Positions 29,668 through 31,951 of a DNA stretch of 45,209 nt are shown one piece after another. The position numbers and the translations under genes are program-made. This DNA is from an uncultured bacterium (GTDB lineage: Bacteria > Bacteroidota > Bacteroidia > Bacteroidales > Bacteroidaceae). A model generated the notes under the pieces. That model had not been told where the DNA came from. It worked only from the letters and a program-made list of their open reading frames with translations, and made no database searches. Each line of letters opens with the position of its first letter. Position 1 is the first letter of the stretch. The stretch is taken from positions 1 to 45,209 of the forward strand of contig CAMBOH010000006.1 of assembly GCA_945869305.1 (NCBI GenBank), read 5' to 3'.

Positions 29668-29854
29668 ACAGGCAAACAGGAAGAAATAAGACAGACCTTG
29701 TCTTCACCCTTCGTTCCTCATCATAAACCAATCAAGTTTGGTCCTGCATTCGGTTTGTCGTCAGTTGGCTGCATTCGACATAGCCATGCCAGTATGATGC
29801 GGTGGTGCGCAGGGAGAATATACTTTCTATTCAGCTCAAACCTGTGATTTGAAA

Positions 29855-30040: not shown

Positions 30041-30904
30041 ATGGCCAAATACATCAATCCTTTCACTGATATAGGTTTCAAGAGAATCTTCGGACAGGAA
30101 CTATCGAAACCGCTGCTGCTCGACTTTCTCAACAGCCTGTTCGAGGGAGAGAAGCATATCGACAATCTGACCTTTCTCGACAAGGAGCAACCCGCACTGT
30201 TTGAGGAAGACAGGTCGCTGATTTACGACATCTATTGCGAAACAGAAGAGGGCGAGAAGATTATCGTGGAGATGCAATACAAGTCGCAGCCATTCTTCAA
30301 GAACAGGAGCATATATTATGTTTCGGAATCCATAGCCCGTCAGGGCGAGCGAGGTTCGGCATGGAACTATGAGATAGCTTCAGTTTATTTGGTGGCTTTC
30401 ATGAACTTCACCCCGATAGACTTCAAGAAGCAGTTCCGCACGGATGTCGTTCTGGCGGAGAAGGGAACGGTGGAGCAGTTTTCCGACAAGCTGCGGATGA
30501 TATACCTCCAGCTCCCGTTGTTCAAGAAGGAGGCCGACGAATGTGAAAATCAAGTAGAACGTTGGATTTATTTGTTGAAGAATATGGAGACATTAAGCAG
30601 ATTGCCTTGGGCGGCACAGAGTGCCGTATTCAAGAAACTGGAGAGTATAGCCGATGTGGGTGCTATGACCCATGCCGAGCGACTGAAATACGACGAGGCA
30701 CTCAAGAAGTACCGCGACACCATCTGCGTGATTGAAGGTGCGCGTATGGAAGGCCGTGAAGAAGGCATACAGGAAGGTATACAGAAGGGCATACAGGAAG
30801 GTATTATTGCAAATGCCCGTAAGATGAAAGCTTACGGATTGGCATGGGACATGATAGCCGAGATTACGGGTCTAACCATAGATGAAGTGAAGGACTTGGA
30901 GTAG
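30041..30904 (+). CDS. Rpn family recombination-promoting nuclease / PD-(D/E)XK putative transposase
   Basis: MAKYINPFTDIGFKRIFGQELSKPLLLDFLNSLFEGE...LIYDIYCETEEGEKIIVEMQYKSQPFFKNRSIYYVS (D...EMQ core); C-terminal EGREEGIQEGIQKGIQEGI repeats. Confidence 0.93.
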   Translation: MAKYINPFTDIGFKRIFGQELSKPLLLDFLNSLFEGEKHIDNLTFLDKEQPALFEEDRSLIYDIYCETEEGEKIIVEMQYKSQPFFKNRSIYYVSESIARQGERGSAWNYEIASVYLVAFMNFTPIDFKKQFRTDVVLAEKGTVEQFSDKLRMIYLQLPLFKKEADECENQVERWIYLLKNMETLSRLPWAAQSAVFKKLESIADVGAMTHAERLKYDEALKKYRDTICVIEGARMEGREEGIQEGIQKGIQEGIIANARKMKAYGLAWDMIAEITGLTIDEVKDLE

Positions 30905-30970
30905 ACCGAACTCTATGACCCGGAGTCATTCGGGTCTAACCATAGATGAAGTGAAGGACTTGGAGTAGAC
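30867..30970. repeat. 40-bp exact direct duplication of the rpn 3' end (30867-30906 and 30931-30970)
   Basis: cgggtctaaccatagatgaagtgaaggacttggagtagac present twice, offset 64 bp. Confidence 0.95.
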
Positions 30971-31004
30971 ACATTGGATGTCTCCACACCTCATGAGCAT
31001 CATA

Positions 31005-31167
31005 CCGATAGACTTCAAGAAGCAGTTCCGCACGGATGTCGTTCTGGCGGAGAAGGGAACGGTGGAGCAGTTTTCCGACAAGCTGCGGATGATATACCTC
31101 CAGCTCCCGTTGTTCAAGAAGGAGGCCGACGAATGTGAAAATCAAGTAGAACGTTGGATTTATTTGT
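31005..31167 (+). pseudogene. rpn internal fragment, 163 bp identical to 30413-30575
   Basis: ccgatagacttcaagaagcagttccgcacggatgtcg...gtagaacgttggatttatttgt is identical in both places; sits inside 85-aa ORF 30978..31235. Confidence 0.95.
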
Positions 31168-31219
31168 GTGCCAATGATGCAGATTCCAACACGATGAAGC
31201 AGATTTCGTGTCCTTCTAC

Positions 31220-31354
31220 CTATATGTCTCTTTGAGCCTGCATTTGTTTGCCCGTTGCGTATCTGAGGTTCAGTAGGAGGGTATTGGCGTCTACCTGGAT
31301 GTAGGACGGGATGTCATTGCTATAATCATCCCTCAAATAAAAGAACAAAATTCG
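31220..31354 (-). pseudogene. short C-terminal coding remnant (ILFFYLRDDYSNDIPSYIQVDANTLLLNLRYATGKQMQAQRDI*)
   Basis: Reverse strand has an uninterrupted ~44-codon frame ending at TAG (31220-31222) with protein-like composition; no start context. Confidence 0.35.
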
Positions 31355-31515
31355 TCAGAGAGCGTGCGCACGAACTTATTTCCGCCAACGGGTGTAGATT
31401 GTCTTTACCCGCAAATTAAGAGCACTGAAAAATATAAGGAATCGTATTTTGGCACAAATTTGACTCTGCAAATAGTCGGCGAATCCCTCCGATACGGAAC
31501 AGAAAAGAAAAAGAA

Positions 31516-31951
31516 CAGGTCGGACTGTAAGCCGGGTTCTGTGACAGCGATGAACGCTGCGCCTGCCATTTATCCGCACGCTGTGTCACCACAGCGTTGT
31601 ATCGTTCTACCCTCCGGCGTGTGCGCCTGCAACAGGGCAAGGCAACTCGGACGAGCAGCCCTTGTGACGCCGGTATACATGAACTTTCAGCATCCGATGT
31701 GCACAGCCCGCATGTCGCCATGCGGCTGGTGAGCTCTTGCCTCACCTTCTCACCCTTACCCCCTGCCTTCTCTGTGAGGCCCGGCCCGGAGCGGCCAGGC
31801 TGGCGTGAAGGCCAGGGGGCGGTTGTTTTCTTCTGCACTGATTTACCCTTGCGGACAACTTCCCGTTAAGAAGCGGATTGCTCTGTGCTGCCCGGACTTT
31901 CCTCCTGCATCACCATTGAATGCACGCGGCAAGCCGTCCGGCCTGTTCTTT
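31516..31951 (-). ncRNA. rnpB: RNase P RNA (bacterial type A)
   Basis: Reverse strand contains GGAGGAAAGTCCGGGCAGCACAGAG near the 5' end and ACAGAACCCGGCTTACAGTCCGACCTG at the 3' end, the universal RNase P RNA ends. Confidence 0.95.

Follow-up and report, generated by a model that had tools for sequence, protein, structure and literature searches.

The stretch of DNA analyzed here, hereafter the window, comprises 45,209 nt and represents contig C6 of a 2.01-Mb draft genome that consists of 126 contigs and is about 76% complete. It contains an intact rpn gene at positions 30041 to 30904, for which the nearest named rpn relatives are found in Prevotella and related Bacteroidales. The encoded protein scores well above the curated cut-offs of PF12784 (204.7 versus 27.4 bits; residues 7 to 234) and TIGR01784 (132 versus 52.1 bits; residues 9 to 285). 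The nuclease-core residues D63, E77, and Q79 are present, and all three are invariant among 46 aligned proteins; by analogy with the superfamily, they would have a catalytic role. Judged from its sequence, the gene belongs to the Rpn/PDDEXK_2 nuclease family. A search for relatives of solved structure yielded nothing beyond a weak 29-residue match to a different molecule. The features of the locus are as follows.

30041–30904, plus strand: intact rpn gene for an RpnL-type nuclease of 287 aa (open reading frame; PF12784, E = 2e-60; TIGR01784, E = 3e-38)
30413–30575, plus strand: sequence repeated exactly in the 163-bp block; codons 125–178 of the core (sequence comparison)
30542–30583, plus strand: codon bias and GC3 dip at codons 168–181, with the cluster extending to codon 188 (30604) (from family representatives; predicted for the window gene)
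30584–30904, plus strand: predicted internal RpnS-like antitoxin region from Met182 (Met182 invariant; copies in relatives begin just before it)
30867–30906, plus strand: source of the 40-bp exact block, the 3' end of the gene including the stop codon (sequence comparison)
30931–30970, plus strand: exact 40-bp repeat of the gene's 3' end (40/40 identity)
30978–31235, plus strand: 85-aa open frame spanning the core copy, probably not functional (open reading frame; PF12784 positions 118–181 only)
30991–31167, plus strand: core copy, without the catalytic motif and the C-terminal part (163/163 from 31005; 173/177 from 30991)

The nearest known RNA is the RNase P RNA at 31512 to 31945 on the minus strand, and none was found to overlap the copies. 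Elsewhere in the window, a sequence of approximately 70 bp at 29702 to 29772 is single copy in its own genome, and the congeneric genomes G025 and G076 have several copies of it (approximately 77 to 83% identity), some in tandem. A pair of adjoining genes for proteins of approximately 270 aa, with 32% identity to one another, is located at approximately 41.9 to 43.7 kb.

Both copies are direct repeats of parts of the rpn gene, with 24 bp of other sequence on the gene side and 34 bp between them. The 163-bp block at 31005 to 31167 matches 30413 to 30575 with zero mismatches (chance expectation, E = 5e-81), and leftward extension to 30399/30991 gives 173 identical positions of 177. A first-pass annotation of this DNA had reported exact 40-bp and 163-bp copies in this order and at these coordinates, and both were recovered in full. 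It had also described a decay upstream of the 163-bp block into a variant version (MSIIPIDFKK versus MNFTPIDFKK), in agreement with the weak similarity that we observed over 14 bp beyond the left edge of this block (10/14; edge test, p = 0.013). At the remaining three edges, the similarity stops abruptly (p = 0.26, 1.0, and 0.38). The right flank, 31168 to 31511, up to the RNase P RNA gene, displays no likeness to the rest of the rpn gene, and a search of viral contigs with the right junction gave no match. The copy region does not fold more stably than shuffled sequences. Inverted pairs (CTATG/CATAG and ACCCG/CGGGT) are located at 30915 to 30945, where the 40-bp copy begins; this region, too, folds no better than shuffles.

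In Escherichia coli, rpn genes encode a toxic nuclease, RpnL, together with a C-terminal antitoxin, RpnS, that is initiated within the gene (Zhong et al. 2023, PMC10327210). The core copy in the window covers codons 120 to 178 and nothing past codon 178, while the 40-bp copy represents the last 12 codons and the stop codon. The copies had been described as noncoding; the core copy does lie within the 85-aa open frame, which scores as PDDEXK_2 positions 118 to 181, and this frame is devoid of D63, E77, Q79, and the C-terminal part. The window copies can encode neither a nuclease nor an antitoxin or other C-terminal product. We recognized stand-alone rpnS genes by coverage of the C-terminal part and a frame open to their own stop codon; the window copies lack the C-terminal part and, therefore, are not of this type.

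Searching the genome itself, we found the 163-bp block only in an rpn paralogue on contig C16 (89% identity) and identified no further copies of the block or of its flanks. The first-pass annotation had pointed to partial cassettes elsewhere in the genome as something to look for, and none turned up beyond this paralogue, which is 82% identical to the window rpn gene over the gene and 89% over the block. Because the window copies are exact while the paralogue is this diverged, the copying was likely recent and local. A 20-bp tandem duplication (TCCGCACGGATGTGGTCCTG) shifts the frame of the paralogue (L037, G000 C16:27042–27736) in the part of the gene that matches the window core block. A complete tandem rpn pair is present on contig C11 of the same genome, and such pairs are common across the family. 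In empty-site comparisons, the two sides of the locus were on different contigs, both ending nearby, in the nearest relative (G076), and the gene order around the locus was not conserved in G081.

For a broader comparison, rpn loci were gathered from 80 GTDB matches, the genus, and the family, and 210 distinct closed genes were retained; downstream copies played no part in their selection, but the set does not sample rpn genes at random. We observed a same-strand partial copy just downstream of 12 of the 210 genes and a 5' partial copy upstream of none (12:0, p = 0.0005). Two partial matches did lie upstream: in L089, a 3' piece of 23 residues, and in L044, part of a distant paralogue. As controls, we took 289 non-rpn genes of 230 to 450 aa from the same loci; 0 of 289 are followed within 500 bp by a comparable copy on the same strand (Fisher p = 2.6e-5 versus the rpn genes). 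When the window is excluded along with the three copies truncated at contig ends, the comparison is 8/210 versus 0/289 (p = 0.0009). Except for L057/L059, the parent proteins of the copy-bearing loci are only 27 to 70% identical pairwise, and the events, therefore, appear to be largely independent. Only in the window, among all surveyed loci, did we find a core fragment with its end at the beginning of the antitoxin part.

In L059, L061, and L297, a contig edge falls inside the copy, so such repeats do trouble assemblers. Given also the fragmentation and incompleteness of the genome, the repeats in the window could have arisen when reads or strains were joined during draft assembly, probably from a metagenome. 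We consider such an artifact quite improbable, because a simple repeat collapse does not give two copies that have unique, unrelated spacers and an edge matching imperfectly over 14 bp, and similar arrangements are located well inside contigs of other assemblies (L077, L184, L207, and L276).

The copies in the relatives are 3' parts of the rpn gene. In 7 of 7 loci in which both ends were readable (L077, L184, L207, L240, L276, L278, and L320), the copy is open to the homologous stop codon, and dN/dS between gene and copy is 0.00 to 0.38, with synonymous sites being saturated in L320. Thus, C-terminal coverage, an open frame, and purifying selection, by which we recognize stand-alone rpnS genes in relatives, are combined in all seven. 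The first Met of the copy corresponds to Met182 of the window protein in four loci (L077, L207, L276, and L278), where similarity to the gene starts within approximately 18 nt upstream of this Met. In L207 and L278, the copy contains fewer repeats than the gene. We suggest that the copies in the relatives act as antitoxins. The Pfam family model scores them below its cut-off, and routine annotation would, therefore, miss them.

Met182 is invariant in the 46 aligned proteins. In a coarser alignment of all genes, Met occupies this column in 53 of 92 representatives, and the shortfall is due partly to alignment shifts and partly to divergent distant members. We compared the codons of 92 representatives with at most 80% identity, each to the codon usage of its own gene, and found the densest synonymous departure at codons 168 to 188 (e.g., TTT at 172, CGT at 174, and ATT at 176), where GC3 is 0.33 compared to approximately 0.63 in the surrounding core. 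Strong deviations at single codons were also observed elsewhere (codons 2, 5, 28, and 220), and the cluster, therefore, carries more weight than any one codon. Moreover, compared with synonymous shuffles, the RNA folds more weakly near Met182 (mean z of +0.73 in 53 genes), while eight other positions gave values of −0.25 to −0.56. This signal is most simply read as an internal start or promoter from which a C-terminal product would be made. On this indirect evidence, the window gene is predicted to contain an RpnS-like region that begins at Met182.

In three loci, gene and copy share an identical run between diverged homologous ends, i.e., 122 nt in L077 (p < 5e-5), 146 nt in L057 (p < 5e-5), and 403 nt in L184 (p = 5e-5), with p values based on random placement. 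L059 gave a clustering p value of 0.011, and L207 and L276 had no clustering of identical runs. The runs in L077, L057, and L184 support that gene and copy may have exchanged sequence or that a recent duplication may have been followed by replacement of the ends; the stand-alone copies at these loci have different C-terminal tails. Together with the exact identity at the window locus, the runs support the earlier view of recent duplication or conversion in a recombining rpn family, with the conversion part of this support coming from loci other than the window. We note that the paralogues L047 to L050 and L038 to L045 have similar cores and unrelated C-terminal tails, with the switch at the repeat region, a possible case of tail exchange between paralogues. 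Likewise, the nucleotide similarity of L047 to L050 to the window gene ends at the repeat region.

The first-pass annotation had proposed that the window contains an undescribed self-diversifying system of silent cassettes, in which the downstream blocks are donors that alter the expressed rpn gene by gene conversion. The conversion-like tracts in L077, L057, and L184 next to different tails, and the differing tails of the paralogues with similar cores, are compatible with such a system. For the window itself, we regard it as very improbable. A donor should differ from the gene, and neither the 163-bp nor the 40-bp copy has a single difference; the core block, which is single and identical to the gene, therefore has no variation to donate, and it lacks the tail. 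The 592 bp that a crossover between the 163-bp blocks would excise contain the stop codon as well as the RpnS region; because the block stops at codon 178, recombination would delete the antitoxin end. The copies in the relatives, for their part, are under purifying selection at the protein level, which a purely silent donor need not be. The family name had been taken as an argument for recombination; Zhong et al. (2023) found no evidence for autonomous transposition of rpn genes and describe Rpn as a toxin with a C-terminal antitoxin (PMC10327210), and the name does not help the proposal. A wider variant, to which we give little credence, is that the downstream rpnS-type copies in Bacteroidales are antitoxin genes and at the same time a store of alternative ends. 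Conversion through the shared middle would then move tails and repeat numbers between copy and parent, such that the specificities of toxin and antitoxin would switch together, and the window would represent a spent or collapsed state.

Rather, we consider it likely that the blocks in the window are recent, nonfunctional debris of the adjoining upstream rpn gene, and that rpn genes of Bacteroidales recurrently duplicate their 3' side downstream, with complete C-terminal copies surviving as selected rpnS-type genes. In this scenario, an rpn gene would repeatedly copy its own 3' side directly downstream, and a duplicate that retains the whole C-terminal part could persist as a separate antitoxin gene of the rpnS type that is maintained by purifying selection and, in some cases, homogenized with its parent by gene conversion. 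All that the duplication would have left at the window locus is the final 40 bp plus a piece of the core that runs to codon 178. Because a fragment that stops at the antitoxin start is specific to the window, we infer, rather than observe, that its pieces stem from the same process as the copies in the relatives.

Alternatively, the block could derive from an older rpn paralogue downstream, already truncated, the middle of which was recently overwritten by conversion from the intact gene. The weak similarity past the left edge would fit with this, L077 and L057 clearly display such a pattern as well, and the family abounds in complete tandem pairs, including the one on contig C11. However, neither the right edge nor either edge of the 40-bp copy shows further similarity, and 31168 to 31511 does not resemble the rest of the gene; we regard this origin as unlikely. 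As routes to the arrangement in the window, one complex rearrangement or conversion of an older truncated paralogue fits about as well as the preferred process, with the 14-bp similarity slightly favoring the latter.

As a single locus, the window is minor. New here are the recurrence of stand-alone rpnS in Bacteroidales, the identical tracts with diverged ends in three loci, and the codon signal before Met182. The survey suggests that stand-alone antitoxin copies, hitherto described behind E. coli rpn genes, arise repeatedly in gut Bacteroidales, and it yields a testable prediction for the internal antitoxin start in these bacteria, i.e., Met182.

Silent-cassette gene conversion systems are exemplified by pilin or VlsE loci. 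The rpn loci resemble them in having an expressed gene with partial homologous copies nearby and, in some related loci, exact tracts with diverged ends; the window differs in having one identical fragment and no set of variant cassettes. Tandem rpn arrays have been attributed to local direct duplication without transposition (Zhong et al. 2023, PMC10327210). Complete tandem pairs similarly occur on contig C11 and in other genomes, whereas the window copies are partial and not in gene order. In E. coli, separate rpnS genes of independent origins have been described, i.e., ypaA (= rpnES) behind rpnE and, in some strains, rpnCS behind rpnC, and the number of four-residue repeats determines the match between RpnS and RpnL (PMC10327210). 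As a control, we read rpnE/ypaA of E. coli K-12 MG1655, in which ypaA is an 84% copy that begins at the internal start (RBS-ATG), exceeds the gene by one repeat, and combines a nearly identical middle with a diverged tail. The window differs from this arrangement, as its copies comprise part of the core plus the terminal 40 bp and cannot give rise to an RpnS. The copies in the relatives are likewise same-strand partial copies directly downstream that start at the antitoxin start, keep the frame, and differ from the gene in repeat number and tail; their start at Met182, approximately 50 residues before the repeats, we count as a difference from E. coli rpnS. Because they share the anatomy of rpnE/ypaA, the Bacteroidales copies belong to the already described kind of stand-alone rpnS.
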